NCBI GenBank assembly: GCA_944474755.1
Contig: OX104123.1
Span: 66,705,898-66,769,897, forward strand
Reading direction: 5' to 3'
DNA length: 64,000 nucleotides
Source of the DNA: Limnoperna fortunei
Taxonomy: Eukaryota; Mollusca; Bivalvia; Mytilida; Modiolidae
Within the stretch, counting starts at the first letter, position 1; every line of letters begins with the position of its first letter. Both the position numbers and the translations under genes were made by a program. The notes under the pieces are model-generated. The model was not told where the DNA came from. It did not search any database and was given only the letters and a program-made list of their open reading frames with translations. Below are positions 8,196 to 41,561 of this stretch, piece by piece.

Positions 8196-8600
8196 TATGG
8201 AACGCCAAATTAACATATATTCAATTAATTGTACCTATCTTCAAATAATTGAAGATATCTTCAATTGAATTATACCTATCTTCAATTCAATTATAGATAT
8301 CTTCAATTCAATTATACCTATCTTCAATTCAATTGTACCTAGGTACAATTCAGCACAATTAAAGATATCTTCAATTAAATTGTACCTATCTTCAATTCAA
8401 TTATAGATATCTTCAATTGAATTGAACCTATCTTCAATCGAATTGAACCTATCTTCAATTGAATTAAACCTATCTTCAATTCAATTGTGCCTAGGTACAA
8501 CTGAATTGAAGATATCTTCAATTGCACTTAATTGTACCTAGGTACAATTGAATTGAACCTATCTTCAAATGAATTATACCTAGGTACAAATGTATTGCGA
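8196..8600 (+). repeat. Left TIR and palindromic subterminal array of the giant element
   Basis: After the 70-bp TIR come many degenerate units of the form CTATCTTCAATT and GATATCTTCAATT, with TACCTAGGTA variants. GAAGATATCTTC, TACCTAGGTA and CAATTG are each perfect palindromes, so the tract can fold into many hairpins. Subterminal repeat arrays commonly bind transposases; that role here is inference. Confidence 0.88.
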
Positions 8601-9069
8601 CCGGAAACGGAAGTTTTGCAACTATTTGGAAATGGACAACGAGGAAGATGCAGATGTTGGTCAAGCTACAAATAAACCAGGTTTGTACACAGAAAAACAA
8701 CATTAAAGACAAATCACAAGTTATTGGGTTTTTTCCGATATCTTTACATTTTTCAATGCTCGGGATATTGATAGATATGACACCAGATATCATTTAAAAT
8801 ATCCATTATAAAACAGGAATGAATATAATTTTGATCAGAGAAATTGAATAATAATAATTGTAATAATGTGTATATAAATACATGTTTCTGTCTTGATGAA
8901 ACTGCAAAAAAACCCTGAAAAATTTATGCCGTAAAATGTTAAAATGCCGACCCCAAATACTCTGTATTAACGACTCTAATGTATGTAAATGCACAGAATG
9001 CAGGATTTTGCACCATTTACCCCAGAGCTCCTTGGGGCCTTGAGCGGCCCCCAATCCCCCTGCCGAATT

Positions 9070-9228
9070 ATTTTTGCCTCATCTAAATCAAATCTCTAGT
9101 TACGGCCCTGAATGCTTAAACAGCATGAGACTTCCGACGGTCGTTGTTGCTGGCCTTCATCAGCATATGTGTATCTGGGAAGGTCACAAGTTCCCCCTGT
9201 ATTGTGGTGTTATAAAAACAATTATAAG
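9070..9228 (+). pseudogene. LINE reverse-transcriptase C-terminal remnant, left part
   Basis: The frame at about 9170-9228 (EGHKFPLYCGVIKTII) resumes at 13429 as RYWYRLENL, the usual late region of a non-LTR polyprotein. The CAC-ended element at 9229-13428 separates the two, and the frame is the same on both sides once one ATAAG copy is discounted. Confidence 0.6.
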
Positions 9229-11461
9229 CACGCCTGGTAAACCGATTAATCTGCACCAAATGCGCAGCACTTCAAAAAGTTATGTGATAATTCCGGTGCA
9301 GAAATTCTGGTTCAAAACTACGAAAAAAAATAATCTGTTGATTATGTTTTGATTCATTATTTGTAAATAAAAGCTTATACGTTAAAAAGGAGAATGTAGT
9401 TGAGTGCCTATATCATTCTAGGAACGCATGTTTGAGTCACAAAATGGAATTAACCATTATCTAAGCTACAAGCGTTTTTTTTCCGTCAGGCAGTTGGTAG
9501 GTAAATTTGATCGTTTGTGTCTGTTTTGTGTGTGATTTATTCAAAAACTCATAATTAACTGGTTATTTTTTTCTATTCATGCATATCTAGATAAAATATA
9601 CATGATATTTTAATCGTTAATACTTGTCACGAAGCAATTATATTACTCTTTATATGCTAAGTGTTGTCATTTAAATATGGTTCAGATGGCGTGGTATACG
9701 TGCAGATGGTATGGCTTATGAAAGAAAACTAGGTTTATTTCCTAGTATTTTATGGTTTGAAGTCTATAAAGACTATTTTGGGTTTACTTTGCAATATATC
9801 TTGAAACAATGATATGAACTTCGTATGAAATAGAAATAGAAATTCTTTATTGACCGAATTAAAGGGCCCACAAGGGGCATACAACATGAAATATACATCA
9901 ATAATTGGTACATTAAAAGATAACATTACATAACATTTTACAGAACTATGTAATATTATTACAGTAAAGACATAGTATAATAATTGAAAATATTTTGTGG
10001 GGATAAATAGTATGTTTTCTTTGAGTTTCACCAGTGACCAGTATTGCTCAGCATTGTAATTTAAGAGTAGTGGACACTGGGATCCACACATTGTTTATTC
10101 AATTTATAGATTAGTTTCATAATGACACTATTAAGTATTCTAGTAATTTACATTACACATGTATGACTATATATGAATATATACTTCTTTTTTTCTTTTT
10201 CGTATGTATAGTCTTTCATATCCCTGATATGTTGTGAATTGTATATGTGCAGAATGCGTGGTTTTGGATTTAAAACAAATCTCTGCTTGTACTATGTTTC
10301 AATTCAAGTTTACAACATAGTTGGTTAATTTCAATTGATTGCAGATCGTTCTTAAAATGTCGAATGATATTTTCGAGCATAATTGGCTACTTTTTGTTAC
10401 TTTTGTGTAGTATTTTTCAGTTCAGTTATGAAATGCATATACATGCACAACGTGTTGAAATACTAACTACTTGTAATCGGAAATTTAGGTCAAAGTGTGT
10501 GACCTAACTCATGATGATGGTATTTTGTAGCTCATCAACTTACCTTAATTATATATATTAGCTCTGATTTGGCATTGTTGTCTGAATTTAATTAGTTCAA
10601 AGTTAATCCAAACTTAACCAGATGCAACCACATATTTTTCATCGTCGGAAACCCACCGGCGGTCGTACTTCGCCTTGCTACGCTTACCACGTAGATAAAC
10701 GTAGGGTGCAATCAGACCTGGGTATCCGAGGGTGCATATTTTTATACTTGCATGTACATTTGTAATTGAAATGCACATGTTAACATACATTGCAAACTAG
10801 TTAGGTTATATGCCTGTGGTAACATAAAAGCTTTACGTAATTATTGGCGATTTCTTCAAAGAGTATAGGTTACACGGACTTCATTGAGCTTGATAGTCGA
10901 AATCAAGATAAAGTCAACAATAAACCCCCGATCAAGAAATGTGAGTCAGAGCCTCTTCACGACACCCTAGCTTCTTATCATCTCTAAGTGCTTGAATTGT
11001 ACTAATGTAGTTGATGTGCCACTTGATAGTTTCTCTAACCAGTCTTTCTAACCGAGTAGCGCAAACGCGAAATGTGGGTCAGAGCCAACATTTAAAATCA
11101 GCATCCTGCTCACCTTCAATAGGTACATCCTTGACCAATATAGTTGATATACTAGATAATAGTTTATAGCGGGAATATACTTTACCTAACCATTATCATC
11201 TTAATATATCCCATTTTACGTTTTATGTTGGAGTCCATGTTGCCAAAATAGGGGCAAAGACTCCCTTGTGAGATCCAATACTTTAGTGTCCATTTTTAGC
11301 CAATAATAGTATAAAACAAAAGGTAATGTGGAAAATGTCAGAGACAACAACTCGACTGTAGAAAGAAACAACCAAAGGTGACGTCTATATTTTTAAGATT
11401 TGATATCTGTACAGTAGTTTGCCACCATTTGCATGCAGTCAACGCTAGTATTTGAGTACGT

Positions 11462-11728
11462 GAAAGACACTCTGATATCCCGCTCGCAACTTTGTCACAA
11501 AAAGGTCTACATAAAAGGTAAACCTAAGTCTCTCAGACAAACAGACACTGACAAGACAGCAACGTTTAGTCCTTCATATAAGGAACTAGTGTACAAAATT
11601 TCATGAAGATCCGACTTGTAGTTCCCGAGAAATTCTAGAAAAACAAAAGTGTGACGGACGAACGGAAGGACGAAAGAACAGACCGAAAAACTATATACCC
11701 CTCAACAAAGTTGGCGGGGTATAAAAAC
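11462..11728 (-). mobile_element. Dispersed element F2, short copy
   Basis: On the minus strand it starts with a hairpin ATACCCCGCCAACTTTGTTG and ends near GCGGGATATCAGAGTG. It matches copies at 18195-18870 and 31925-32200. No coding capacity. Confidence 0.7.
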
Positions 11729-12046
11729 TGTCATTTTTAAGCATCATTTCTTTGCAAAACACTGGGATTTCACCGTCACAAGTCAGGGGTCCTGCGTCCA
11801 ATAGCGGTCCGATAGTAGACACGGTACCAGGGTGGGGTGGGGGCACCTGGTTTAAAAATTGATGTGGATGTTCTTCGGGTTGTTCAAACACTGACCCCTT
11901 TCTAGGCACGTTTTTTGCTAATTTTCGGACCCCATTCCAGACAATTGTACAAAATTATAGACCATCATTAATTTAACCAAATAAAATTGATGTATATGAT
12001 ATAATTTAATTTTACACGTATTTAATGCGTTGTATATTCATCTAAT

Positions 12047-12178
12047 GCATAAAGTCGTTCAGGCAGAAAATGTATGTCACAGTGACCTACTGTCACCTGT
12101 ATAACTGAATGTGGACGCCGGGGGGGGGGGGGGGGGGTTACGCCAATAGTTCTGCTCAACTTCGTTAAGGCGAACTAA
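12047..12178 (+). repeat. Degenerate F1 element end
   Basis: Ends TTCGTTAAGGCGAACT like other F1 copies and contains ATGTCACAGTGACCT (12074-12088), a one-mismatch form of the palindrome shared by the family. A run of about 18 G lies at 12121. Confidence 0.5.
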
Positions 12179-12917
12179 AAATCACATTTTTATGCATACA
12201 TTTACACGATTTTTACAATAAAACCTCATTCAAGACAGATAATTCTTTACCCTTTACCAGATGAGACGAAAACTGAGTACCAATTTCCAGACGAATCTTG
12301 TCCAGATGCCACCCCGTTTGTCGGAACATACCCACTTACCATTTATATAGGGAGTGTCCCTCCCCCGGGATTCAGGTCCGCTGAATTGTGAGGAAGTCAT
12401 AAATTCGGCGAACGATATCTTCGCTCTCAACTGGGTTAAGGGTCTGGAGAATTGATTAAAAGGGCGGTAAATTGGGGGTTGAAGGGGCGAAGAGCGTAGA
12501 ACGGACGAGAGTATGGGAAGTGAAAGGGTCCAGGGAATAGGGGTTAAAGGACGGAGAGCGGGCGTCAGAGTGGGGAATGTTGGTAAAATGGATGTAAAAA
12601 GAAGACCACCCTTGTCTACCTATTCTTAATTTCTAGTAAGAAGGAATGACAAAACAAAGATTTTTACCACAAATTCTTATAAGGAGTTGAAAAAAAGCAA
12701 AAAAGCGAAATATTCATTTTTAAGGAGGTGGAGTTATGTTATTCAAATAAATATATACATACAAACACTTACTATATATAAACATTACAAATAGGTCACA
12801 CGGTGTGGCAGTCATTAAGGGCTCGAATTTTTTTCTTCAGTTAAATATACGAGTTGCAATCCATCTATTTACAGCATCCTATGTCTTTATATATAAATGA
12901 TCGTTGATGGCTGAAAA

Positions 12918-13014
12918 CACAGGGGTCCGAGATTAGTATAGGCGACTTTGCTTCTAATATACGAGCTCATAAAATAGAAAGAAAGTCGCCCTTTACTAAC
13001 CTCGGACCCCTGTG
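12918..13014. mobile_element. 97-bp foldback element with CAC ends
   Basis: CACAGGGGTCCGAG at the left returns inverted at 13001-13014; most of the 97 bp pairs with itself. No flanking duplication is visible. Confidence 0.65.
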
Positions 13015-13428
13015 GGTATAAAGGTTAGATTTATATGGGACTGGTAATAAAAAGACCGAAATACTGCATAAACATTATATTTGAATCAGTTTTGTTCAAT
13101 AAGCACTAAAATGACTGAATTAACCCATGAACCTTGTTTGTTTTGTTTTTAGATCAATTTTTACCCATATTGACGTGTTTAGAAATGTGATTACGGACGT
13201 AATTGCAAATACATATAACAATGTTCATTTAAAAGACTATTCATTTCTATAGCTGATAGCATTCTTCCTTTTTTGAAAATTATGTCTTAAAATCGTAAAT
13301 TTATATTTTTTTCATACCAACCCGTCAAATATCCTCTCTTTTTCAACCAGAATTTCTGCACCGGAATTACCACATAACTTTTTGAAGTGCTGCGCATTTG
13401 GTGCAGATTAAACGGTTTACCAGGCGTG

Positions 13429-13890
13429 ATAAGGTACTGGTATAGATTGGAGAATCTTTCATCTGATTTCCCATTATTAAATGATGCCTATAAATGTAGC
13501 AGGAATCTTCACATAGAAAATAAATTCTCTTGGTTTACTTTTGTTAATAAGTTACTTCAATTTATTGGAATAAAAAGAGAGGATTGTACTAAAAAAGGTT
13601 TCGATTTAACAATCTATTAGACAAATTAATAAGAAAAAAACTTTTAGGTACTTGGTACGGAATGAAAATTGATGGTAAACTTTGTACATACCTCAAGAAC
13701 AAGGACCATTTTGGTTTTGAACATTATTTAACTTACTGATAAACGCAACGCAAAGCTTTTTGTAGACTTCGAATTTCAGCTCATGGTTTATAGATTGAAA
13801 CTGGTCGTTATTCAAAAACTCCTAGATCAGATTATTTAAAAAGGGTTGTAAAAATGTACACCTCTTACTTGCTCCACGCGGCTCCTGATT
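13429..13890 (+). pseudogene. LINE reverse-transcriptase C-terminal remnant, right part
   Basis: Starts with RYWYRLENLSSDFPLL and, after stops and a frameshift, continues with RISAHGL and IETGRYSKTPRSDYLKR, motifs from the end of CR1/Jockey-type LINE proteins. It is a decayed fragment lying in the first intron of the integrase gene. Confidence 0.65.
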
Positions 13891-15424
13891 TTGAATTTGT
13901 AAATTGTAGTTGGCAGACCATCGTCAAATATTGACAGAGACTCTTTAATCCTGTTACAAAAGAAGGGATTCACGGCCAACCAGATGGCAAAACATTTTGG
14001 ATGTTCCTGTTCGTTAATTTATACCAAACTTCAACTATACGATCTTCAACAAAGGAAGAAATATACGGACATAACTGACGAAGATCTAAAGATCTGCATA
14101 GAAAGGCTACACAGAGAGTTTCCAGCTGCTGGTGAAAAGGTATTTTTAATGTGAATAATTCGCTGTGGATTAACACACAATAAAATTTAGTTGATGGGGG
14201 TCTTTTTGTAACGGGTGCGTCTAGCAGACGTGGGAAGGGGAGTTGATTAAGGGTGGACATGGTGTACTCTTCTTTCACTTCCCGCCTTCTCTCCTCCAAC
14301 ATCTCGGATACTCTTAACCAACCTCTCATTTCTTAAAAAAAAACCACACAAATACTCTCACCATACAGGCAATCTGATTAATTGTCGGTCACGGGGTTCC
14401 ATTTTAAAATGGTCTACGTAAGTTGCTACACACCATGATATATCTGTTCTTTTTTCGAGATTCGTGCAGTGTAGATATCTCAGGATCATAGCCTCTGTCT
14501 TCTCTTCAAATGTTAGAATGTTTAATATTTTACTAACTTAATTTCAGCTCATGAAAGGTTACCTTCATACGGAAGGATAGTAGTGCAAAGGAAAAGATTA
14601 CGCACCGCCCTTTCAGCAGTGGCAGATCCGAACGTAAAATCCAAAAGAATAAAGCGAAGAACTTATAAAGTGGCCACGCCGAACACTTTATGTCACATGG
14701 ATGGTCATATGAAACTCATTAGGCGAGTAAAATTTCATAACTGACTTATGTAATCGTAGGTTGTCTCTTGCAGTTTTATATATGTGTAGTATTTCCCCAT
14801 ACTCCTTCTGTTTATATGGTCACTAAAAGACCATATTATAATCGGGCACAATAGTGGTACTAAAATTTGTCTTGAATGAAAAAAAAACATGAAATTCTGC
14901 ATGCTGTTTATCTTTTCTTTCAAGTACAGTATTAGTTCTTGGATACATAAGCCTAGAAAATTGGACCATTGAAAAATAAAAGTCGATTATTTTTAAACAA
15001 TCATATGTTAGTACATTAACTATATAGATTTGGCATGATAAAAAAAAATATCAATCGAAAATTAACTAAATATGCACATTGAAAATTTATGTTATTTTTC
15101 AATGGATAACATTTTTATCAGTGTCAATTCTTAATAATTAATTTCAAAGGACATTTTGATCTAAAAAGCGGCTCTAAGTTTGAGTGAAAAATCATGTGAC
15201 CATATCCATTGAGAAATAACAAAAACCATTTTAGCCAATCAAATTAAAAAAAACCTAAATAGTGAAGAAAATTAAATCTACCTTTAAAGCGTGGTCTATG
15301 GCTAATAAAGCTGTTTTATATTTTAGTAATTTTACATTTATTATTCACCTGCTATTATAATAGTTTTCTAAATATTCTGGTCTCAATTCTGCGAGCATAA
15401 TTGGTAAAACATTTTGTTTTACAG

Positions 15425-16151
15425 ATGGGGGATAACTACACATGGATGCATTGATGGCTTTTCAAGACTTATTGTGTACTTGAATGCTTCGACAAACAAC
15501 AAAGCTTCTACAGTTTTCCAACTTTATGTAACGGCAACACTCCAGTATGGCCTTCCTGCATCTGTAAGATCAGACCATGGTGGTGAAAATAGGCATGTGG
15601 CTCTGTTCATGAATTTGGTATCAGATGCTCGACAACGTCATTTCACTGGTCGCTCTGTCCACAACCAAAGAATCGAAAGATTGTGGAGTGATGTTCGCAC
15701 ACAGATTACAGATTGGTTTTACGATTTATTCTGCAAAATGGAGGATGAAGGCAAGTTGGACATTAACAACGAGAGTGAGATTAAGGCATTACACATTGTT
15801 TATTTACCAATGATCAATAGTCGGCTCTCGGTTTTCAAGGAGGGTTGGAATAACCACTCTATTAGAACAGAGAGTAATCAAACCCCAGAACAGTTGTGGA
15901 TGCTAGGAACAATAGAGAATGGTCACAAGAATACATCTAACATTAGAGGCATACTCTCGCCCGAGGGCTCAGTGAGGAACCAGTTGCAACAGGGTTTAGA
16001 AAAGTATGGCCTCACATTTCAAAGTTTTAATGACATGGAAGAGATAGAGGAACATAATGTAGAAGATCAGTTTGTTCAAGACATTTTAGCAAGGGACTCA
16101 AATTTGGAAGACAAATATTTGGAAATTAAGACATATCTGGGTAACAATTAA
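15425..16151 (+). CDS. Integrase catalytic-core exon (exon 4 of the left gene)
   Basis: The longest open exon, 727 nt after the acceptor TTTTACAG ending at 15424; the ATG at 15414 lies in the intron and is not the start. It carries CIDGFSRLIVYL, the second catalytic Asp in RSDHGGEN, the motif SVHNQRIERLW with the catalytic Glu, and NQTPEQLWMLG typical of the family. The tail after about residue 170 is acidic and less conserved. No stops or frameshifts occur in this exon. Confidence 0.88.
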
Positions 16152-16208: not shown

Positions 16209-16418
16209 AGCTTACTACAGTCCTCCTAAAAAATGACCTCAAAAGGAGATGGTATTGATAAAGGAAAACACCTTAATTGTCAAATGAATTGGTTGAGTAA
16301 TCCTATAGAAGTAGTATTTAAATGGCTTAATAGAATGTCATAGAAGGAGTTTAAAAGACTTGGTCAGATTAATCAATCATCTAGTTCATTTGATGAAACT
16401 AATGTACCAAAAAAATAA
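16209..16418 (+). repeat. Inverted repeat arm just past the integrase stop
   Basis: About 210 bp starting 58 bp after the integrase stop is repeated inverted at 19044-19250, just past the ligase stop. Both arms encode a near-identical short frame, MTSKGDGIDKGKH to FKWLNRMS and stop. Either a duplicated 3' untranslated region or the relic of a third gene. Confidence 0.8.
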
Positions 16419-19043: not shown

Positions 19044-19250
19044 GTTATTTTTTTGTACATTAGTTTCATCAAATGAACAAGATGATTGATTAATCTGACC
19101 AAGTCTTTTAAACTCCTTCTATGACATTCTATTAAGCCATTTAAATACCAATTCTATAGGATTACTCAACCAATTCATTTGACAATGAAAGTGTTTTCCT
19201 TTATCAATACCATCTCCTTTTGAGGTCATTTTTAGGAGGACTGTAGTAAT
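19044..19250 (-). repeat. Inverted repeat arm just past the ligase stop
   Basis: Inverted partner of 16209-16418. It lies about 310-515 bp beyond the ligase stop codon on the ligase strand, and carries the same short frame ending FKWLNRMS. Confidence 0.8.
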
Positions 19251-19558: not shown

Positions 19559-22500
19559 TCACTCATCAGTAAATACTTTAACTTGATCTATAGCAGCAAG
19601 CATATTGGACTTGAAAAGTTGATAATTGCTTAATACAGGCAACTTCAATTCATTGCTGCAAGTGTTTGCAAAAGGAAATTGTCCAGTTATTGGATTCATA
19701 TGATCATCTTCATGTAGAAAGATAATAGATGGCGCAGGGCTGATTCCCAAGGGGGGGATTCTTTTCAGGCCAACTGAAAAGGCCATGAGGTCTTCCAGTC
19801 TGTCTTCATCTGTAAAAGAAATAAAATTACAGTTTTATTTGTTACTGTTTCATTAAAATCTTTATGATAAGATTAAGTAAGAATTAAGTAATGCAAAGTC
19901 TTCAAGTAGTTTTCCATTAAGGCTATTCCAAAATTGCTTGCAGGCACTGATAAATATCAGGGTACCACTTGATTGATGTACCACTAAAGTTTCTGTGGAT
20001 AAGTGATAGTCTTATAAAATACAAGTGTGAAAAAAGTTCCTGCTGTTATTTTTCATGAAATTGATGTTGTGATAAAGAAGACTGGAAAGTCTATGAGAAA
20101 CAGGATACACCTCTCGTTAAAGTAAATCACTAAAGATTTCACAGATAGAGGGAAAAATGAGAGTCCCTAATTCATAGTAGTGAATAGTGCTCTACAAAGA
20201 CCTATCTACCCACCATGAATAGTTGCTGAGAAATGAACCTAACACTGAAAACTTAACCTAGTGGCTCAAGTGGAAAATGTAGGTCAAGGTGACCTAATTC
20301 ATAGTGAATAGTGTTCTACTAAGGGATATTCCAGAAAAAAATAGCCCTAACTAAGATCTATCTACCTACCAAATATCATTGACCTACCATGTATAGTTGC
20401 TGAGAAATGGACCTTAAGCGAAAAATTAAGGTCAATTTGAGCTTTGTAAACACTTGCGTGGATTCTGTTTCTGATTCTTAATTTTGAAATGAATCACAAC
20501 AGGGGCGGATCCAGAAAGTTTTGAAAGGGGGGGTTCTCGAAGGAAAGGGGGGGTTCCAGGCCTAATTTTACCGATTTTTGCTGAAAAATTGCACGAAAAT
20601 CTAAAAATTATCCGCCAATGCACAATGCATTTCTCACACCCCTTTGTTCATCAGAAAAATGCTCAATCATACTTAAACACACCTTCTAGGTCCTGCAAAA
20701 AATCCCTCCAGAAATTCTGGGTAGTTTTCTCCTTTTTAAATTTGTTGGAGCCATTTGCTGCCCACATGTTGATAGAGAAGACATCTTCTACTAATGCGGC
20801 AGTGAGGACGTTTTCTTTGTTGTAGACAAACAGTTGTCGCATGGTGTCAGGATTTTGTTTGATAGCTTCAAGTACACCACATGTTTTTAACCCCTCACAG
20901 AATCTATGAAATAAATGGAACATTTTAAATAAAATTGTGAGTCTGCCATATGGAAGACATGTGTCGCCTGCACTACAAAAATATTAATGGTGAAAACAAT
21001 CTGAGTCTGTAAACAGCAATTAGATTTTGTCTGCAAATCTGAAAAATGTGACACAATATGGGATACCAGATAATGCATACCAAATATTGAAATGCTATGA
21101 CAAGTAAAGTCCATGAATCGATGAATGGAACTGTTTCATGGATTGATGATGGATCCATGAGCGATTGGGGTCATATCCATGATGGATCAATACATGATTA
21201 CTGACCTAATTCATTTGCATTGTGTTGTACAAACAAGAGGCCCCCAGGGGCCGGAATCGCTCACCTGATACCTAATGTTCTGAATTTATTGAAAATTAGT
21301 TGAAAATGGCAGCCATTTTGAAAATGGCCACCTGTAGAAAATTTTCGATACTGCCATTCAACTCAGGGTGTCCAGTTTACCCTTAAAACACATTGCTAGA
21401 GAAATTTTGAGGGAAAAGGGCAATAACTCCTACAAAACTCAAAGGATTGTTCTGAAATTTGGTCTGAAGGTAGATCTCATCATTCTTCACATTTTTCCTG
21501 AAGTAATTGATCAGCTATCGCGTACCGTTTTTCCGTTTCAGCCAAATTTTCCAAAATTTTGAAATAAAAGGGGCAATAACTCCTACAAAACTCAATGGAT
21601 TTTTCTGAAATTTGGTCTGCAGGTAGATCTCATCATTCTTCACATTTTTTCTAAAGTAATTGATCAGCTATCTCGTACCGTTTTTCCGTTTCAGCCAAAT
21701 TTTCCAAAATTTTGAGATAAAAGGGGCAATAACTCCTACAAAACTCAATGGATTTTTCTGAAATTTGGACTGTAGGCAGATCTCATCATTCTTCACATTT
21801 TTCCTGAAGTAATTGATCAGCTATCTCGTACCGTTTTTCCGTTTCAGTCAAATTTTCCAAAATTTTGAGATAAAAGGGGAAATAACTCCTACAAAACTCA
21901 ATGGATTTTTCTGAAATTTGGTCTGAGGGTAGATCTCATCATTTTACACATTTTTCCTGAAGTAATTGATCAGCTATCTCGTACCGTTTTTCCGTTTCAG
22001 CCAAATTTTCCAAAATTTTGAGATAAAAGGGGCAATAACTCCTACAAAACTCAATGGATTTTTCTGAAATTTGGTCTGAAGGTAGATCTCATCATTTTAC
22101 ACATTTTTCCTGGAGTAATTGATCGGCTATCTCTTATCGTTTTTCCGTTTCAGCCATTTCTAAGACAAATTTTGCAAAAATTAAGGGAAAAAGGGCAATA
22201 ACTCCTACAAAAATTAATAGATTTTTCTGAAAATTTTACCACAGATAGAGCTTCATATCAGCTTTATTTTGAGGTAACGGTTTTTTCTGTATCTCATGTG
22301 GTTCCTGAAAAAATAGCAAAAATCTGCGGTTTTACCCCATGTTCTATTTTTAGCAACGGCGACCATGTTTTTTGACGGATCAATTTGAAATGAGGAATTT
22401 TTGTAGCCAATACCCCATAGACCATTGCTACCAAGTTTGAAGCAAATCCGTTCAGCGGTTTCAGAGAAGAAGATTTTTGAAAAAGTTTACGACGACAGAC

Positions 22501-25074
22501 GACGACAGACGACGGACGACGGACACAAAGTGATCGCAAAAGCTCACATGGCCTATAGGCCAGGTGAGCTAAAAATATATATGTGCCTACAATTTGAAGT
22601 ATCATCGTTCTACCATGTATAGTTACAGTTAGAAATGGACCTAATCATAGAACTTGACCAAGATCGGGACGTACGTACATACAGACAAGCGTGAATTATG
22701 CCCTGTCACATAAGTCTTCAGGTTTCAAAATTTCATAAATGGTAAACTTACTGAGTTAAAGCCATGATTTTCCTGCCAATGACAAGAAAATGGCAAACAT
22801 TATCCAGTAGTTCTTGTTTTCTGTCATATGAGTGTGCTAAATGTATGCATCCAGATAAGTCAATTAAATCCATCATGGCTCCTGTAGCCTCAATATAATC
22901 ATTGGCATCTTTAGAGTCTGATACCTGAAATATTTGAATATTAATGACAATAAGTAATAATATGCACAACTACATTATATCATTGAATCTTCCAAATTGG
23001 CTCTCCACTGTGGGTGGGGAGTGAAAAAGTCACCTTGATGCTTTGATCAAGAATACCGCTCATATTTTGTTCATTGTTTAAGGCCCTCAGGCAACACCAA
23101 GATCAAGAAAGCCCTGTTCTTTGATCTACATATTTTCCCCATGTATCATGCAAATTTAATAAATTCAATAACAATTACTTCCACTCCATAAAACTCCTTT
23201 TTATAGGGATACCTGCTGATACATTTAAAAACCTTTTATTACCTTTTGTAATTTCTGACGTATGTCATGTTCTGATACATGTTTTAGCGACACTTTAGTG
23301 AATTCTTGCCCATAGGCTATTGTGTTGTACAGCACTTCATTAAAAAACTGGTGGCGGACCCCCATGCACCAAGCTATACGATATTACTCTTGCGTAGAAA
23401 TGATAGGTGCCTTCTTCTAAGGCTGAAAAAAAAATTAGAAATAGACAGGATATGAGGAAATGTCATGAATACAAAGGTATAACAAAAACAAACTTCAAGA
23501 AACATAAGTGCATATATATTTTACATTTGTATATACTGAAACAAGGCAATTTTATTGCTGTATTTTTTCCCCGGTTTGTTGCAGTGAAAATAAAAAAGCC
23601 AAATGAATGAAATTTTCCTGTTTAAAATATTTTCTAAAAAAGTTATCTGTTTATGCTGCTTAAGAACAAATACAAATGGTAAAGATTTGTAGTGAAACTG
23701 CTACAATATTTTTCAATTCATTATTTTCAATACAATGTATAAACAAAATGCACTGTGAGCAAGCTCACAAAAGAATACCCCTCACATTCATGAGCAACAA
23801 ACAAAGATAAAATTCCAAGAAGCAGTCTATGAGGAGTTCCACTAACAAGAAATGTGTACAGACTGCACTAGTAAAATGTACCAAAAAGGTTTGATACTTT
23901 GGCCAATACACAATTGGGAAATCTATACATCTTGAATTTTCTATCATCAATAAGGTTATGTTTGTACGCATTCCTTGCATTTGTTTAAATACATGTACAT
24001 GAATAGAATTCATAACTATTTACCTTTGTAATTTAAAATCAAGTTTTTGGCATCTCCGATAGTTTCGAAGATACCAGAATCTTGGATATCTGTTACGGCC
24101 AATTGGAGAAACTCCCTAGTTAAGCCTCCGTTATCAATTCCCATTTCGGCCGCAAATCTAACAGTCAGTGGTGACCATTGGTTAAAAGTAGGCCTGCTGA
24201 ATGCCCTCCTACCACCATCTAATACTGCATCTCTATCCACATTAACTATGTTTTTTCTTCCATTAATATCGATACGGCTTGAAAGTTTTGTCATGATGGT
24301 AGTCAGACTGTAAAAAATATAAACAGAATAATGGAAGTTGGTATCTATTTATGTTAGTTCATGTTATTTGTCATCCCCAAAATACCTGATATCAGACATG
24401 AAAATGACATGAAAAATGGGGAGGGGGATATATATGAAGTAAATGGAAATGGGGAACATGTCAAAGAGACAACAACCCAACAATGAAAAAATAACACTGA
24501 AGGATGGTCTACAATTGGCCTCTGATCACTAACACCAAGGCAGGTGAAATAGATGCCCTTCTAGACTCCAAGACAACATGTATAACTAAATTTTGTATAA
24601 CTAATTTTGTTTGACCGCAGCACATTACGGAGACTATTCTTTACTGCGACCTTTATTTCTCAACATTTAAACAGATATACAGCTTAAAATAGCAGAAAAT
24701 ATAATATACATGTACATGCATGTAATTGATAAAATTAACTTTAAATTTCAACTTGATTTTCTCTAACTGTAAGATTTGTGCTGACAATGGAGGCTTAACC
24801 AGGGAGTTTCTCCAATTGGCCATAACAGAAATTCGCGATTCTGGTATCTTTGAAACTATTGGAGATGCCAAAAATCGGAATAATACTTATGGTGTCCATG
24901 AGCTTAAAACATTTCAATGCTTTTCAAGTTTGTATTTTAAATATTCTCATACCATTCAGCTTCATCGGGATTCATTGGTATGGTTTCATCATTTGCATGA
25001 TTTGCAGCAACAGTAGCACTAGAATCAACCCCACCAAAGATAATCTCATCATCACTACTTGAACTTGAAGAATC
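19559..25074 (-). CDS. HECT domain exons of the ligase gene
   Basis: Six exons (24953-25074, 24024-24307, 23243-23422, 22752-22924, 20683-20903, 19559-19809). Recognisable HECT landmarks in order: AVLDGGRRAFSRPTF, VRFAAEMGIDNGGLTREFLQ, SLVHGGPPPVF, NFWRDFLQDLE, RIPPLGISPAPSIIFLH and FANTCSNELKLP with the catalytic cysteine, ending about 37 residues later. The style is that of the compact HECT proteins often annotated as G2E3-like in molluscs and fish. The homopolymer T run at 23353-23358 causes the frameshift. Intron 22924-23243 is short; the intron 20903-22752 holds an F3 element. Confidence 0.85.
20281..20295. promoter_or_regulatory. IR3 nuclear-receptor-type palindrome in a repeat
   Basis: AGGTCAAGGTGACCT: perfect AGGTCA/TGACCT half sites with a 3-base spacer, in F1-related repeat sequence within an intron of the ligase gene. 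Function is unproven. Confidence 0.5.
21232..22575 (+). mobile_element. F3 element with six ~153-bp internal units
   Basis: Begins ACAAGAGGCCCCCAGGGGCC and GCTCACCTG, ends with the hairpin-capable AGCTCACATGGCCTATAGG and CCAGGTGAGCTAAAAA. Units starting CAATAACTCCTACAAAACTC recur at 21421, 21574, 21727, 21880, 22033 and 22196. Non-coding; copies at 36967, 37918 and, divergent, 30990. Confidence 0.82.
22985..23110 (+). repeat. MITE-like repeat, inverted relative to 25250-25372
   Basis: Starts CCAAATTGGCTCTCCACTG and GGGTGGGGAG; its inverse ends near 25366 in CTCCCCACCCGCCACAGAG. Both contain TTGATCAAGAATACCGCTCA or its complement. They lie in separate ligase introns. Confidence 0.55.
24783..24874 (+). 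pseudogene. Inverted partial copy of a HECT exon
   Basis: Encodes DNGGLTREFLQLAITEIRD and GIFETIGDAKN, matching the HECT exon at 24024-24307 but on the opposite strand and only 92 bp long, without splice sites. It lies in the intron just upstream of that exon, so the transcript could fold back on itself here. Confidence 0.85.
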
Positions 25075-26664: not shown

Positions 26665-27141
26665 ATTATCACTAACTCCTGCTGCTTGATTGCTTAAACC
26701 ACCTGTTAGATTGCTTGAGCCTCCTGCTTGATTGCTTGAGCCTCCTGCTTGATTGCTTGAACCACCTGTTTGATTGCTTGAGCCTCCTGCTTGATTGCTT
26801 GAACCACCTGCTTGATTGCTTGAACCACCTGCTTGATTGCTTGAGCCTCCTGCTTGATTGCTTGAACCACCTGCTTGATTGCTTGAGCCTCCTGCTTGAT
26901 TGCTTGAACCACCTGCTTGATTGCTTGAGCCTCCTGCTTGATTGCTTAAACCACCTGCTCGATTGCTTGAGCCACCTGCTTGATTGCTTGAAGAACCACC
27001 TGCTCGATTGCTTGAACCACCTGCTTGATTGCTTGAGCCACCTGCTTGATTTCTTGAACCACCTGCTTGATTGCTTGAACCACCTGCTCGATTGCTAGAG
27101 TCTCGTGCTTGGTTGCTTGCACCACCACTAATTTGTCGGTC
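26665..27141 (-). CDS. Ligase exon of about 20 GGSSNQA heptapeptide repeats
   Basis: A 477-nt, phase-0 exon between TCTAG/GACCGA (27141) and AAT/GTGAGT (26665). It starts DRQISGGASNQARDSSNRAGG and repeats a 21-nt unit coding GGSSNQA, with NRA, SRN and one inserted Ser as variants, ending GVSDN. The flanking exons 34389-34439 (DRQVIGAPEE) and 35059-35118 (...GVSDY) share its start or end, suggesting exon duplication. Low-complexity Ser/Gly/Asn/Gln sequence would be a flexible linker or phase-separating segment. Other-frame ORFs here (both strands) are shadows. Confidence 0.85.
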
Positions 27142-27857: not shown

Positions 27858-30800
27858 CTCATCTAGCCACTGAACCTGAATAACAGTTGGCGAAGTTATT
27901 CCATTGTCTCTCAAGAGACCAGTTCTTTCATTTGAGGATATTATTGGAAGGCCAGGCACCACTAGCAGAAACGTTCTGCTGGCACCCTCTAGACTGCCAA
28001 CAAAATCATGGAGTACCTTAAGATAAAAAGAATGTACTTTTACAATATTTTATTTAATATAGTTATATTTTTAATAACTTTAATTATTGTATAGCAATAT
28101 TATTTTCCCATACAAAGCAATGGGATGTCATCGTGCAATAATATATACTTATTGACTGGGAATGAGGGAAATAGTTAGTTTATTATCACGAGGTGCAACT
28201 ATATTGCCTCGAGGCGTAGCCGAGGGCAATAGTTGCTTCCGAGGGATAATAAACTAACTATTTCACGAAGTTATCCAGTTAATAAGTATTTTATTATACC
28301 GAAAGAGACCAAGAGATGGTATAAATTATGTAGAAAGTCAAAAACGTCCATAATAAAACCCGGGAAAACTTTACGACGTCGCCCCTGGAACAGGCGTCAC
28401 CACGCCCACATCACAACGTTGTCCAATCAGCAAGCGCTGGTACGACCGGTCAATAGTTTCCAAACTATTTTCCCTCTCAGAATAGTTAGTTTATCAGCGT
28501 TGTATATACTGAGGTATAATAAATTCTCATTTTACTAGGGAAAATATGACTTAAAATTTGTGACTTCATCAAAGATAAAGCTTAATTTTAGGCATGAAAT
28601 TTGTGTGTGCTATACAATAAAAGGGTTATTGCATGAATATTGTGGAATATTGTCACTCATAGAATAAATATTGCACTCGTAAACTCGTGCAATATAGAAT
28701 TCTACTTGTGACAATATTCCCCAATATTCATGCAATAACCCTATATTACAATAGTCTATTTGTGATGAAACATTATTATGTTGTTTCTCACCACTATACA
28801 ATGTAGCAAGGTTGCAAACCTTTTATTTAAAATGAATTGGGGACTAAAAATGTACCATAAGAGAACTTTACATGTAATTACTGCCATATGGCCAGATTTT
28901 ATAAACTGTTTTGTTTGTTTCAATCTAATTAACATATAATATAAATATTAAATTAAATATTGTACATTTTGAAGGTTTTTAGGAAAAGTGAGTTTCAACT
29001 CTTACAACTTTCTCATATTTACAGTAAAGATAACAAAATAATTTTGGGTAGAGGTCTGACAAGAGTGCATGGAAGTTAGTATTTCTAGTTGTATGACGTT
29101 CCAAAGATGAGGCTTCATATAAATCATTACCTTTATAGGGAAATGTAAAATTATATTTTTTATCTAAAATGTTGACAGAATTTCTCTTCACTCCTGTTCT
29201 CAAATGAAAATAAAGAAAATTTTAATAATCATTAGGAAGTGTTATTTAATACTTGCTTACAGCCATTTCAGTATCGGGTCGAAACCTTCTAATAACATTG
29301 GACCAGGAAGTAGTTGTCCTGAACTTTAATAGAAAAAACCCATCAGTTGGTTCTTCCGGTAATCGCTGCTTTCTTTGTAATCTCAACTGAAATTAAAAAA
29401 ATCATGATACATTTTAACCAAAAAAACTCAATCAATAAAAAAATGTTTACCTGCAACTTACTTACATATTCATTTATTCCTAGTATATTCATTTAGTTAC
29501 ATGCCTATATTGCTTCCCATATCATTTCTTTACTCATATTAATATCAAAATCATAAATGTTTTCTAATTTCAAAAAGTCAACTTTCCATTCCTTTGTGGA
29601 AATGTTCCAGACCGTATGAGTATTTAGACCGTACGCGTACGGTCTGGACCGTATGAGTATACGCGTACGGTCGGACCGTACGAGTATCTCAAACACAGTT
29701 GGATTAACGAGCCGGACCGTATGAGTATCCAGACCGTACAAGTATATTCTTCTTTATATTTAATAATATTCAATGCAAGAAGACTAAAAATAAGCCCTAT
29801 AATGGAAAATAATGACAAAAAATTTAACATTTTATTTAATTTTTAATTAAAGTAAAAAAAAAAAACATTAGAACATTACTCAATTAAAATTCAAAAGCAC
29901 AAAATGGTCAATTAAGGAACTGCTTTCGCATGTTTCATCGAAATATTGATTTAATATTTCTACTAATTCAACAGATATATACTGAAGATTCACTGAAAGT
30001 CGAAACAAAAGTCCGACATTTGAAAATGTTGTAGGTTCTCGTGATACAGCATTCATTTCATTCAATATTTGATATCTTCAATGATACCCAGACCGTACGC
30101 GTACGGTCGGACCGTACGAGTATTTTGAAAATATACGCATACTGTCCGGATCGTACGCGTACGGTCCAAATACTCATTCGGTCTGGAACAGAAACATTTC
30201 TTCCATCCCTGTATGGGATATACATTTCACAACTTTGTACTGTGGATCGCTCATTTATTTTTAGTTTTTTGTTTGTTAATTTTTTATTGTTTATACGTAT
30301 GCATATTGGATGTTGTGTCTGGTTTCCCGATTTTGTCTTTTCCATAGACTACATTTTTTTTTGTATGCCTAAATTACAGTTATAATTTTGCTTGCCTTAT
30401 CTACTTTCAGTGAATCAATTTCATGCCATTTCATAAAGATGTTCTTATTTTTTTCAGAAACCAATTATATTTTGTCAATCATTTTTGAGTTGGACAGACT
30501 AAAAAGTATTTTTAATAAAATATGGCCGTAAATATTAATATATACAGATTGTCATAAGAAACACGCCACCACAACAGGTGATTTTTTCATAAAACAAGTT
30601 GAATTTTCTATTAAATTTCTTTTTGTATATATATTTTTGACAAACATTTCTGAGAAGAAAAACTGATGTGCTTCTTATGACGGTCAGTAAATATCTATAT
30701 ACTTCTTCTATTTCTGTCCTTTCTCTTTCTTCTTGATTTCTTGTTCTTTCTTCTTGTCTTCTGGTTCTTTCTTCTATTTCTGTTCTTTCCATTTCTTCTT

Positions 30801-33474: not shown

Positions 33475-33633
33475 AAAAATGTGACGAAAGTTTTTGACGG
33501 CGACGCAGGACGATGACGCAAGACGACAGATAGTACCCAAAGTAATCCCTAAATGCCGACTCTGCTAAAGCAGGCAACATAAAAAATTAAAATATCTAAA
33601 AATTCATCATACCATAAAACTATTTATCATTTT

Positions 33634-34126: not shown

Positions 34127-34266
34127 ATTTTGAGAAATCTGATTGGTTAACGTTTGTCGAATATGAGACCATATTACCGACTGGCGACGTTTATATGATG
34201 GCGTGTGACACAGGCGGTTATATGAGCCCATAAGTGTATTACCTGACTTAGCAGTATGATAAATTT

Positions 34267-34370
34267 GTTATATGGGATTTAGACCGGTAATATAACCTGC
34301 GGGTCGTGAAATATAATTACAGACATGTTATAATTATGAGCCTATATTACCCGTCTAAATCCTATATAAC
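34267..34370. mobile_element. Foldback element, ~104 bp
   Basis: GTTATATGGGATTTAGAC at 34267 pairs with GTCTAAATCCTATATAAC ending at 34370, with GGTAATATA/TATATTACC continuing the stem. Confidence 0.65.
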
Positions 34371-35768: not shown

Positions 35769-35920
35769 TAGACTTGCCATAAATCCCTTTGAATTTTTTT
35801 GCTATTAGCGAATTACATCATTTCCTTTACTATCCATCTATGTACACAAGTGGATAGATTAGGAAATGTTGATAATAAGGATGTAACTCTCAAAATTCAA
35901 AGGAACTTGTGGCAAGTCAA
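35769..35920. mobile_element. Foldback MITE with 9-bp target duplication
   Basis: AAGTTTATG flanks at 35760-35768 and 35921-35929. Ends TAGACTTGCC and GGCAAGTCAA are inverted; inner segments CCTTTGAATTTT and AAAATTCAAAGG pair. A 9-bp duplication suggests a Mutator-like source. Confidence 0.72.
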
Positions 35921-36449
35921 AAGTTTATGGTGTATTTGTAACTAATCAGTCGTGAATACACTGTATGCATGGATTAAACTTAACTATTTTTCCTTTAGTA
36001 GCCAGCTGGACTCCTGTGCCTAGAAATCCCGGAGCCTAACAACATTGTTAGGGACCCAACTTTTTCAGCACAAAATTGTCTTTTTACTATGACTCATATG
36101 GTGATGTGTATAATTCTTGATTATAGAACATACATGAATTCAGAAATTATTGTCGTTTTGATATCGCTAATAAATAATATATAGAACAATAGGGTAAATG
36201 GTGTGTTTTATTCTGTCAAAGTGCTTGTATTGTTTCATAAAATTAAGTTAAATTATATAATTTGCAGGATAGCACTAAAAAAATGTAAAAACTTAATCTT
36301 CACTTTTGGGCTCTGTATGTTTGTATTTTTTCATGTTAACATTTTTTCCCCTACTTTTCATCTCAGAATTTTAGAACAGAAAAAATTAGAATTTAGAAAT
36401 AACTGACATAACATGGTGCTTGGGTGCCATCTAGCCCCACCCCAAAACA

Positions 36450-36575
36450 TCTGAATACAAGTCAGATCGGCACTTGGTCAAAACGGCACCTGGTTAAATC
36501 GGCACTTAGTATAGTCAATTCGGCACTCAGTATGGTTAATTCGGTACCTGATATAGTCAATTCGGCACCTATGTT
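36450..36575 (+). repeat. Short degenerate repeats of TCGGCACCT
   Basis: TCGGCACTTGG, CGGCACCTGG, TCGGCACTTAG, TCGGCACTCAG and similar words recur every 20-30 bp with AGTCAAT or GTTAAT between them. Confidence 0.6.
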
Positions 36576-36791
36576 TTTTCTGAATTTATTATAATATGTT
36601 CAGTTATAAACAAAAACGACTGAAAGTGAAAGATAATAATGTTTATTTCATTAAAAATCTAGCACATATAAACGCAACCAGCACAATAAAATCTAAGAAC
36701 TGTTCAAAATGATAAAGTAATATATTAAATGATTTAAAAATCATTTCAATTCATCATATTAAAGTTACAGTTAATGTCAGCATTATGATCG

Positions 36792-36944
36792 TTACTGTGC
36801 AGGAGGTCCGTAAACCGATGCGCATTTCCTTAGTAAATAGCTGGCACTGATGGTGTTGTTCTTATATTGCTGCCACAAACTGAAAATCATTTGCTGAACC
36901 TGACGGTTCTGTTTTCTTTGATGGCGTCTTAATTTTCCCTCTGC
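36792..36944 (-). pseudogene. Unrecognised terminal-exon-like frame
   Basis: On the minus strand, after CTTGTTGCAG, the frame reads GKLRRHQRKQNRQVQQMIFS then LLRKCASVYGPPAQ and stop. Composition looks protein-like (basic, then Gln/Trp-rich). It lies in a ligase intron beside F3-type repeat. I do not recognise it; it could be an alternative terminal exon or a transposon fragment. Confidence 0.3.
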
Positions 36945-36966
36945 AACAAGCCATAGATGAGCAGTT

Positions 36967-37541
36967 TTTGAGATATAAGCTTTCATATGTCCCGACAGGG
37001 TACCCCTCTTAGAACGGCGGCCATTTTGAAATGGCGACCATTTTGAAAAATCCGAACGATGGAATTGTTCCAGATACTCTACAGAACATTTGTGTGAAGT
37101 TTCATAAAAATCGGCCCATTGGTCTTTGACAAGTTAACGTTTGAAAATTCAACAAAATTTAATCATAATTACGTCATTTTTTCAAAATGGCCGCCAAACG
37201 CTTCCAACCGATTTTTATTTTTTTTCATAAACTTGTAGTACTAATTAGCCTCTACTAGCATACCAAGTTTGATCAAATTTGGTTCAGCAGTTTTTGAGAT
37301 ATAAGCTTTCATATGTCGCAACGGGGTATCCCTCTTAGAACGGCGGCCATTTTGAAATGGCGGCCATTTTGAAAAATCCGAACGATAGAATTGTTCCAGA
37401 CACCCTAGAGAACATGTGTGTAAAGTTTCTTCAAAATCCGCCCAGTGGTCTTTGACAAGTTAACGTTTGAAAAAGTTTACAGACGACAGACGACGACGGA
37501 CGCCAAGTGATGACAGTAGCTCACGCAAGGTGAGCTAAAAA
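36967..37541 (+). mobile_element. F3 element, truncated copy
   Basis: Two units of AGTTTTTGAGATATAAGCTT followed by GGCGGCCATTTTGAAATGGC, ending CACGCAAGGTGAGCTAAAAA. The start is missing. Confidence 0.65.
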
Positions 37542-37917
37542 GGAATCTGTAATTCTTAAAGCATAAATAATTTCAATGTTCCCATATTTAAATATTTATC
37601 CCCCTTTTTCAGTGATTGGGAACGAAATTTTTCTAATGGGCCATTTCCCATTATTTTTAAAATATGAATGGGCCATTTTCAATGTTAATGTATCATGGCA
37701 CATGCCCTTCCCGATCACTGCTTTTTACATTGTAATTTTTTGGTGAAAAACATTGCAAAAATCACCTTATTTGTAATAAAATACATCAAATTAAAAATCA
37801 AATTATTATATTATAATACTCTTTTAAAAAGGACTCTGTGATTCTTAAAATGTTGCCAATTATACCCATATTGCGATAGAGTTATCGCTCTTTGTACAGT
37901 ATGATGTCATTGATTGT

Positions 37918-38648
37918 GAACAAGATGCTCCCAGGAGCCTGAATCCCTCACCTGGTACCTAAAGTTTAGAATAAATTGAAATCTGGTCGAAAATGGTCAC
38001 CCATAGAAAATTTTCGATACCGCCATTCAACTCAGGAGGTCTAGTTTACCCTTAACTTTGTAACAAACAATGACAGAAAATATGTAAAAACTGCATTTTA
38101 AGGCTGTGTTCTATTTTTATCAACAGCAGCCATGTTCCTTATCGGATCACAACAAAAAACATGTAAGAACTGAGTAGCTAACATACCAAAAGTCATATAT
38201 ACTAAGTTTGAAGCAAATCGGTTCAGCAGTTTCAGAGAAGAAGATTTTTTTAAAGAAGTGTTCTAAATACATTGAAAATTGGTCGAAAATGGCAGCCATT
38301 TTAAAAATGGCCGCCCGTACAAATTTTTTGATACCCACATTCAACTCGGGAGGTCTGGTTTACCCTTAAAAACACATTCCTTGAACACTTTATAACAAAC
38401 AATGGCAGAAAAATATGCAAAAACTGGGTTTTAAGGGCTATGTTCTATTTTTAGCAACGGCGGCCATGTTTTTTATCGGATCACAAAAAAAAACCACAAA
38501 CTTGGTAGCTAACATGCCAAGTTTGAAGCAAATCGGTTCAGTAGTTTCAGAGAAGAAGATTTTTTAAGAAATGTTAACGACGACGACAGACAACGACGAC
38601 GGACGCCAAGTGATGACAATAGCTCACGGCCAGACCTGTGAGCTAAAA
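37918..38648 (+). mobile_element. F3 element, two internal units
   Basis: Begins AACAAGATGCTCCCAGGAGC and CCTCACCTGG, ends ATAGCTCACGGCC...CTGTGAGCTAAAAA. Two internal units with GGTTCAGNAGTTTCAGAGAA. Confidence 0.72.
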
Positions 38649-39298
38649 ATGGCAAAAATCACATTATTTTCTAAAGAATTATTTTATGAGGTCTCTATTT
38701 TCAGATTCATGTCGAAATTTCCCAAAACTGTTGTACCACATTTGAGACCCAGTATTGATTTCTTTATTCGTTTGTTAGACTTGCTTCAAGTCCCTTCCTT
38801 TTTATTAAACATAAAAATTATGAGACTCAGAGATGCAGATAAGTGCAGGACCTACATTTTTAAGGGCAGAAATTTGATAGGTCCTGCAAAAGAAGTCATT
38901 GTGCTGGACCTATGTCTGGCAAACTTTTGGACAGCTTAGACTGAAAACAGTTGATAGGTCTGCTAAAATTTTTGTAGGTCCTACAAAATTATGCATCTTG
39001 CAGGACCCACTGTCTGACAGGAAAAAAATATTTATCTGCATCTCTGGAGACTGCTTGTACAGCACATTGATAGAGGGGAATCAACTGGATGGTAATCAGA
39101 TTATCTGATAGAGAAATATCATGTATAGTGGAAATAATAAAGTACAAAGGGACTTGGAGCAAGTCTATTCGTTTGACTAATAACCATATTTCCTTGGCCT
39201 ATTTCTCTCCACAACAACGTTTATGAGGGTCATGATGGGGGTTTACAGAATAGCAAATAATGGCTTAAAAATTTAAAGAATAGTGAATGCTTTCCATT

Positions 39299-39443
39299 AT
39301 GCGATACGTACCAGTTGAACCAGACTATTTTTATGTCGTCACCGGTTCGTCTGGTTCGTATGTTGTTGCAAACCACTTGCGCCGAACCGGGTAATGGAAC
39401 ATGAATCTGAGATTCAACTGGTATGCACCGCATAATGGAAAGC
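39299..39443. mobile_element. 145-bp MITE with ~35-bp TIRs
   Basis: GCTTTCCATTATGCG at 39299 and its inverse ending 39443; ACCAGTTGAA pairs with TTCAACTGGT. No clear duplication. Confidence 0.62.
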
Positions 39444-41003
39444 ACCCCAATTTGAAGTTTCGTGAGTATTCTGGCTGTCCAGATAGCATAACCGTATTAT
39501 GGGCGTACAGGAACGACAAAAACAATCAATGTGGACCTTTTAATGTATCCTACCCAGTAATAATTACACGGTAAAAAACTACAATAAAGAAACAAAAACA
39601 ATGCATAAATACCACGAAACGCGAGGGAATACGGAGAAAATTACAGTCAAATTATCACTAGTAATTAAAATAACAACGAAATGTTTATAGAGTTCAATAT
39701 ATATGACGCACGGAAAGTTATCCATCAACCTTGTTTTCATCAATCTCAATGATGTATAGAATATTAATTTAGTGTTCACAGTTCAATTAATTCCATGTTC
39801 TAAATAAATCGTAAGATGTGTACGGTAGCTGTTATTATACATATTTGGTGTATTTGCAGTGTTTACTCACGCTGTCCGTTGTCTTAATTTCAAACAGGAG
39901 ATTTGTTGTTGTCAATTTCTTCTCATCATGACGGAAAAGAATATAGTGTAATAATATACTTATCGATCTGGTATTTAATTGTTGAATTCCGGACAGAAAC
40001 ACAGGTGAAATGAGGATCAGCACAGGTGAATTAATTATCGATCGTGAATTAAAACAAGAATTAGATGTGCCATTATAGTGAGAGTAGCATAATTTACAAA
40101 ACTATGAAAACAAATGTGATTGTTTTGTTGCATTTGCTGTCACTTTCAAAAACATAAAATCTGTCGTTTGTAAGCAGGCATATAACAAACTAAATGACAT
40201 ATCAAAACAAGGCATCGTTGGTCTCAGACCAAAGAAAAATAAATACAGGAAAATAAATACATAAAATTTCCCCATTTTCAGTCACTTTCTATATTTTTTT
40301 TGCTTAGCCTAATTAAAAAACCACAAAAGAGACAGAAGGATTGGTCGAGCACTAAGTCGGAACGTCTAAAAACACTACAGTTTGCTTTAGTTTTGGCTGT
40401 GTATACCTGCGTAATATACCTGGCTGTTACCTGTACCTATCAACTTCCGGTTACATAAAATTTGTGTTGCAGTTCCGATCTAATATAGATCTATAAGCTT
40501 ACGGGTAACGGGGGGGGGGGGGGGGTTTAAGAGGGGGTCAGATCCTGGAATCCTGAACTTAAAAATGCCTAATCCCGACTCCCGAACTTATAAAATGACC
40601 ATCCCGACATCCCGAAATCATAATTTTCAAATCCCGATTGGCGAATCCCAACAAGGCATTTGATCATTTTCCCGAAATCCCGGGCTTAAAAATGGCCAAT
40701 CCCGGCGTCCCGAAAAAGGTCCTACCCCCTCATCTACATACAAGTAGCTCTGGGTCCTTGATGTTTTAGTCTGATGAGTCGTGCGGCCTTCCAAATAAAA
40801 ACAAATCAACAAAAGTGATCTGATCATTTTTCGGTAGGAGCACCAGTTCGGGAAAAGTACGAATATTCGGCGCGGTAGCGAAATCATCGTTTTTTTTTAG
40901 AAAACGCAAAAATCTTGAATGAAAATAAATCTAATTGAGCTTTATTATATACATTTAAGGTATGATATAATACCAAAAGGTAATTATGCAATGAGATGTG
41001 TAC
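39444..41003. other. First ligase intron, partly degenerate repeats
   Basis: Contains a run of 17-18 G at about 40510 and, to 40720, degenerate copies of AATCCCGACATCCCGAA. A donor-like AGC/GTGAGT on the minus strand near 39868 ends a short frame (EIKTTDS), but I could not place a matching acceptor in phase. Confidence 0.35.
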
Positions 41004-41084
41004 CTGTGATTCGATTGTTTGAAGAGCTGGCTGAACAACGTGTTGCAACTGCTCGGCCATGCTGCTGCTAAGGATGATGGGAAG

Positions 41085-41561
41085 ATGGAATTATACCTAT
41101 CTTCAAATGAATTTTACTCATTTGTACCTAGGTATAATTGAATTGAAGATATCTATAATTGAATTGAAGATAGGTATAATTCAATTGAAGATAGGTGTAA
41201 TTGAATTGAAGATATCTTCAAATGAATTGAAGATATCTTCAAATGAATTGGAGATATCTCCAAATGAATTATGGAGATGTTGGAATTAGACCTATCTTCA
41301 AGTGAATTAAAGATATCTTCAATTCAATTGAAGATAGGTACAATTGAATTATACCTAGGTGCAATTAAATTGCACCTAGGTATAATTCATTTGAAGATAG
41401 GTTCAATTGATATGAAGATATCTTTAATTATTTGAAGATAGGTACAATTGAATTGAAGATATATTCAATTAATTGTACCTATCTTCAAATGATTGAAGAT
41501 ATCTTCAATTATTTGAAGATAGGTACAATTAATTGAATATATGTTAATTTGGCGTTCCATA
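41085..41561 (-). repeat. Right TIR and palindromic subterminal array of the giant element
   Basis: Inverse of the left array: 70-bp identical TIR (41492-41561) and about 400 bp of GAAGATATCTTC, GAAGATAGGT and TACCTAGGTA units joined by CAATTGAATT. The register and number of units differ from the left end. The ligase ATG is at 41060, about 25 bp inside. Confidence 0.88.

Follow-up and report, generated by a model that had tools for sequence, protein, structure and literature searches.

Does a gene for a HECT ubiquitin ligase in the mussel Limnoperna fortunei belong to the same mobile element as the transposase-like DDE integrase gene that it faces? The question is raised by a segment of 33,366 bp (8196-41561, measured between two terminal inverted repeats, TIRs) in the window, that is, in the whole stretch of 64,000 nucleotides that was analyzed (C13:66705898-66769897, within a searched genome of 1.335 Gb). 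With a probability of roughly 0.82 for the explanation as a whole, the segment is a rearranged and by now defective copy of a cut-and-paste DNA transposon that has two genes and is of IS3EU type, the HECT ligase is the second gene of that transposon, and the pairing of the two genes is recurrent. Direct support came from the ends, both genes, the target duplications of short derivatives, a mobile derivative with HECT sequence in it, and recurrence of the gene pair beyond chance.

The ends were compared with each other and screened for arrays, and a window scan for the start of the TIR (up to 3 substitutions allowed) returned 2 occurrences only, the two ends themselves. An earlier note on this DNA, made from the letters alone, had described a perfect 70-bp inverted repeat with subterminal arrays, and both were recovered:

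8196..8265, plus strand: left TIR, 70 bp, starting TATGGAACGCC, identical to the right end at 70/70 positions
41492..41561, minus strand: right TIR, 70 bp
8216..8597, plus strand: left subterminal array, about 17 copies at a 21-bp period; its palindromes include GAAGATATCTTC and CCTAGG
41094..41549, plus strand: right subterminal array, 21-bp period traced over 41136-41549, about 20 copies

The left gene reads inward on the plus strand:

8632..8680, plus strand: integrase exon 1, ATG and donor GT; also carried by two short derivatives (L020 and L021)
13910..14139, plus strand: integrase exon 2, AG/GT splice signals; HTH_7 at E = 0.0043, below cut-off
14548..14722, plus strand: integrase exon 3, first catalytic Asp at 14700-14702; frame-broken; GC donor; rva_4 at 6.7e-5, under the curated cut-off
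15425..16151, plus strand: integrase exon 4, second Asp at 15573 and Glu at 15675 with 33 residues between; rva_4 (PF24764) at 1e-72

The D/D/E residues and the rva_4 core were present. Exon 1 joins exon 2 in phase (GT after 8680, AG before 13910), and splice signals and rva_4 together confirmed the inward-reading DDE integrase, with this same join, that had been proposed. Exon 2 gave weak helix-turn-helix matches only and no zinc-binding family in a Pfam scan that covered exons 2-4, and no relative was found when viral contigs were searched with the integrase query. Directly past the integrase lies an inverted repeat (186 bp, 97%, 16229-16414 and 19048-19233, 2.6 kb apart), which may be a transposon nested within the element; a sibling copy, L042, departs from the window sequence near 16328.

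The right gene lies on the minus strand, with exons from 41060 down to 19559:

41004..41060, minus strand: proposed first coding exon, ATG to GT, with predicted splicing to the HECT exons; present in derivative L021
30703..30816, minus strand: proposed coiled-coil exon, AG/GT flanks
29261..29386, minus strand: first half of a UBX-like region seen by eye, AG/GT flanks, without Pfam support
27858..28016, minus strand: second half of the UBX-like region seen by eye, splice signals by inspection, without Pfam support
26665..27141, minus strand: open, exon-like repeat stretch (GGSSNQA)n of 21-bp repeats, no Pfam match
24953..25074, minus strand: proposed acidic linker exon, AG/GT flanks
24024..24307, minus strand: HECT N-lobe exon, AG acceptor, donor by inspection; within the PF00632 query
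23243..23422, minus strand: HECT exon, frame-broken; counterpart between both arms of derivative L012
22752..22924, minus strand: HECT exon with splice signals; within the PF00632 query
20683..20903, minus strand: HECT exon with splice signals; within the PF00632 query
19559..19809, minus strand: last HECT exon, catalytic-Cys motif TCSN (Cys codon 19660-19658), stop

The joined catalytic exons matched PF00632 (4.2e-14, 53.3 bits, cut-off 23.9), and with the TCSN motif the product has, by sequence, the HECT domain and catalytic Cys of a HECT E3 ligase. The claim that a spliced HECT ligase reads inward from the right end was upheld by PF00632, with the full set of exon joins a predicted one. The UBX domain that had also been claimed for the ligase was not recovered: the two UBX-like exons, when joined, gave no Pfam match even with E allowed up to 10, and no UBX chain was matched among PDB sequences. 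The minisatellite at 26682-27126, 21 repeats of a 21-bp unit, reads open as (GGSSNQA)n on the minus strand and seems to be one of the exons of the HECT gene.

To what kind of element these ends belong was answered by their copies elsewhere. A genome search with the 71-base end (40 of 430 candidates scored) gave no fewer than 42 places with 70 or 71 identical bases. A perfect 6-bp target duplication was present at 18/18 distinct complete TIR pairs that were fetched (645-5,679 bp long), so a family of transposons that duplicate 6 bp of target is defined by these ends. For this count, the outermost pair was used at L016 and its inner pair (732 bp, 3 mismatches) was excluded, as were L037 (a repeat of L015), L019 (ends 107 bp apart) and the one-end loci L001, L002, L006 and L008, L006 being the place of L021. 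L017, which overlaps L016, was left out of the end-pair scan.

Among the matches listed (near the ends, or >93% over >120 bp), inner-element sequence was seen in L012, L020 and L021 and in none of the other 15 complete pairs. In L021 (C10, 5,679 bp, duplication GACGAA), window positions 8196-12113 and 12193-12950 run straight into 40546-41521, followed by the terminal repeat; its segments, 4.7 kb from the left and 1.0 kb from the right, are 98.4-99.9% identical to the window. One element therefore includes both the left end, with integrase exon 1, and the right end, with the proposed first HECT exon. In L012 (C7, 1,461 bp, duplication TATATC) a left arm of 289 bp (99.7%) and a right arm of 400 bp (98%) enclose a HECT catalytic exon within window positions 23132-23894 (97.8%). 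Integrase exon 1 was also carried by L020 (1,060 bp). Searches with the inner ends gave 4 genome matches for the right (4/4 candidates scored) and 6 for the left (6/6); at C3:36.79 Mb, search matches of 371 bp to the left inner end and of 76 bp to the right one stand in opposed orientation 6.5 kb apart. The simplest account of these four loci is internal deletion from an element in which both genes were present. Copies without genes have moved, and it follows that the element's products work in trans, the transposase at a minimum.

The family thus appears in the assembly as many short derivatives, with no second full copy found. The genome-wide TIR search that the earlier note had asked for gave end pairs with 6-bp duplications at other places and HECT sequence within L012; searches with the last HECT exon (35/35 candidates scored) and the integrase (150 of 610 scored) found no other copy with both complete genes between these TIRs, which agrees in part with the outcome that the note had named as refuting its proposal. 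The proposal that the ligase belongs to the element was strengthened by L012, L021 and the recurrent head-on pairs described below. Two same-direction TIR copies about 300 bp apart were seen at L016, at C3:36794420/36794711 and at C1:63175423/63175726, which suggests tandem duplication of an end.

Whether the pairing is particular to this locus was judged from matches across the genome, searched exon by exon, with pairs counted within 25 kb. Two integrase lists were used: at least 150 places similar to the window integrase (list 1, 150 of 610 candidates scored) and at least 150 places by the Pfam model rva_4 (list 2, 150 of 1124 scored). The HECT list held at least 102 places (129 of 192 scored). 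List 1 gave 18 pairs, 16 head-on and 2 same-strand, where random placement of the HECT matches gave a mean of 0.56 (maximum 3 in 500 trials). List 2 also gave 18 pairs, 16 head-on and 2 same-strand, involving 17 HECT matches, against a mean of 0.57 (maximum 10 in 2000 shifts); the lengths of C1, C11, C12 and C15 entered both statistics as approximations. With both lists merged, at least 17 distinct head-on pairs were present, including that of the window, at spacings of 2.5-7.2 kb, and a head-on HECT partner stood beside 8/14 of the best rva_4 matches. Because the pairing recurs against an expectation of about 0.6, the ligase has the look of a second gene that recurs and not of a one-off cargo, and the pattern suggests a group of jumping genes that make their own protein-tagging enzyme.

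Dispersed HECT frames of near-equal score (122 amino acids; 579-679 amino acids) were also seen with no listed integrase within 25 kb. They fall into two groups (C14:29.89 (two), C6:18.74, C12:14.44, C13:21.95, C2:23.47, C2:84.79 (two) and C2:96.93 Mb; and C7:23.95, C7:91.02, C8:80.59 and C9:24.53 Mb), and are possibly further HECT-bearing repeats.

Several results weigh against a two-gene transposon with a recurrent pairing. The last HECT exon was found at 3 genome places (35/35 candidates scored) and a near-identical integrase at 2 (150 of 610 scored), and the copies outside the window stand separately, HECT at C13:61.6 and C9:41.5 Mb and integrase at C13:29.0 Mb. The window was the sole holder of both genes in those searches, which found no second copy with both between these TIRs, and integrase exons 2-4 lay between both arms in no derivative read. 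For each list, 132/150 integrases had no HECT match within 25 kb. The other 16 head-on pairs, for example at C6:46.416, C11:33.79, C14:18.21 and C3:7.27 Mb, are putative transposons placed by search matches to their two genes; several may be copies of one family. Most paired HECT matches are partial (often about 226-282 of 306) at E of 2e-6 to 9e-4, above the curated cut-off. Finally, the eight next-closest integrases (L043-L050, 44-45% identity, in two groups of near-identical copies) showed no HECT in 3.6-kb loci with about 1.5 kb of flank visible, which counts against a ligase beside every rva_4 integrase.

The window copy itself has features that weigh in the same direction. The 6-bp target duplication is absent: the left end is flanked by AACGAG and the right end by GTTTTT. 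A dispersed repeat with 4 copies in the window at about 85% (7874-8195, 3519-3837, 42084-42392 and 46597-46913) is severed in its first copy, 7874-8195, at the left end of the element, without continuation in the right flank. With the left repeat broken and the right flank unrelated, the left-right pair of the window is not one clean insertion; either the target sites of its two ends were not the same, or a flank has been lost. Each gene has one exon with a broken frame, integrase exon 3 and the HECT exon 23422-23243; the former is open in sibling L042 and the latter in sibling L012, and assembly error is a possible source of both breaks. An intact single insertion, as had been read here before, is not supported (no duplication, mismatched flanks, frame-broken exons). 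A refinement of the two-gene reading, with a chance slightly short of even, is that the window copy is a recombination hybrid of two full-length copies whose matching duplications were lost. Perfect TIRs within mismatched flanks fit such a history, and both ends are near-identical to those of the derivatives; loss of a flank after insertion, however, would give the same picture, and parent copies were not found.

A rival explanation is capture of a host HECT ligase, once, as passenger cargo without a role. Most listed HECT matches do stand away from a listed integrase (84/102 for list 1, 85/102 for list 2), and the UBX-like exons match the window alone (2 matches, 4/4 candidates scored). A single capture is nevertheless improbable in view of the head-on pairs, which numbered 17 or more where about 0.6 were expected and share one orientation at spacings of 2.5-7.2 kb. 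Less probable still are two separate insertions, an integrase-only element on the left and a ligase-only element on the right that each lack one end, with host DNA between them: the missing duplication, the unrelated flanks and the gene copies found apart elsewhere would suit this account, but the two ends in question meet in L021 within a duplication of its own, L012 holds HECT sequence between both arms within another, and the search matches at C3:36.79 Mb bring both inner ends together, opposed and 6.5 kb apart.

With one two-gene element preferred, its relation to known systems was considered. Host HECT E3 ligases (SMURF2, E6AP, HUWE1) share with the window ligase the HECT domain and the conserved catalytic-Cys motif; the window ligase differs in being transposon-borne and is no more than weakly similar in sequence to HECT ligases of solved structure (best E 7.9e-10). 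RAG1 has a RING-type ubiquitin-ligase domain, and transposons of RAG1/RAG2 type are thus alike in being a transposon-derived system with ubiquitin-ligase activity; there the domain is of RING type and lies inside the recombinase, whereas here a separate HECT gene is present.

IS3EU elements at large are described as having TA..TA termini and target duplications of usually 6 bp (PMC10045372), and fungal IS3EU elements as having TAYGG..CCRTA termini, 6-bp duplications and TIRs of >30 bp (PMC12730594). Both ends of the window element read TATGG..CCATA, and the 6-bp duplication is present across the family (18/18 pairs) and missing from the window copy. From termini, duplications and TIR length, membership of the IS3EU superfamily is inferred for the element; as far as the available text of these sources goes, TA..TA termini, 6-bp duplications, TIRs of >30 bp and an integrase-like DDE transposase are features in common, and the HECT ligase gene head-on to the transposase sets the present element apart, none being mentioned there for IS3EU. 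In the accessible account of fungal IS3EU elements with TET/JBP genes, an alpha-kinase gene lies opposite the transposase (PMC12730594). The plan is alike, in that the gene for a second enzyme runs opposite to that for the transposase; the fungal elements have an alpha-kinase with a TET/JBP gene between, in place of the HECT ligase (PMC12730594). KolobokP elements of bivalves and other animals, according to the available part of their description, encode a DDD/E transposase and a His-Me finger nuclease on the complementary strand (PMC9587614). They too are two-gene DNA transposons with genes on opposite strands, and differ in belonging to another superfamily, in a composite-like structure with long terminal direct repeats, and in carrying a nuclease and not a ligase (PMC9587614). 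No transposon-borne HECT ligase turned up among the listed results of a search of the open-access literature, with Repbase and most subscription journals outside it, and no open-access paper was found that treats IS3EU together with HECT; a database entry may already note the pairing.

What would the two genes do? The left gene encodes a DDE integrase-like transposase that would bind the 70-bp ends and the 21-bp arrays and insert the element with a 6-bp target duplication. The right gene, head-on to it and part of the element, encodes a HECT ubiquitin ligase whose most likely role, at somewhat less than even odds, would be to modify or remove a protein limiting to transposition. This protein is tentatively placed in the transposase complex or among host repair or silencing factors, in no order of preference. 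A role as mere passenger is less likely because the pairing recurs. The bolder proposal, an IS3EU-type lineage in which a standing HECT second gene marks either the transposase complex or a host guard to be removed, is speculative and more probably wrong; if it were true, ubiquitin signalling would be built into the transposition cycle. A parallel is offered by phage Mu, whose transpososome is taken apart by the ClpX unfoldase, and if the UBX-like exons were real, p97 would be recruited directly. Should the two-gene reading hold, a DNA transposon carries a protein-modifying enzyme, with which it perhaps controls its own transposase or disables host defence. Together with the alpha-kinase of fungal IS3EU elements, as far as these are described in the available text, this suggests that the superfamily gains from a protein-modifying partner. 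Annotation of the HECT family would be affected as well, with some members possibly being transposon genes.

Other repeats of the window lie outside the element. At 49455-53920 there is a non-LTR (long terminal repeat) retrotransposon with a reverse transcriptase (RVT_1, 4.2e-27); matches resembling an endonuclease, an RNase H and a zinc finger fall below their cut-offs, and the matches lie in different frames. A partial second non-LTR copy was recognized at 56652-57338 by similar translation only. Tandem arrays were found at 1661-1946 (28-bp unit, 10 copies, 99%) and at 48076-48327 (84-bp unit, 3 copies, 99%).

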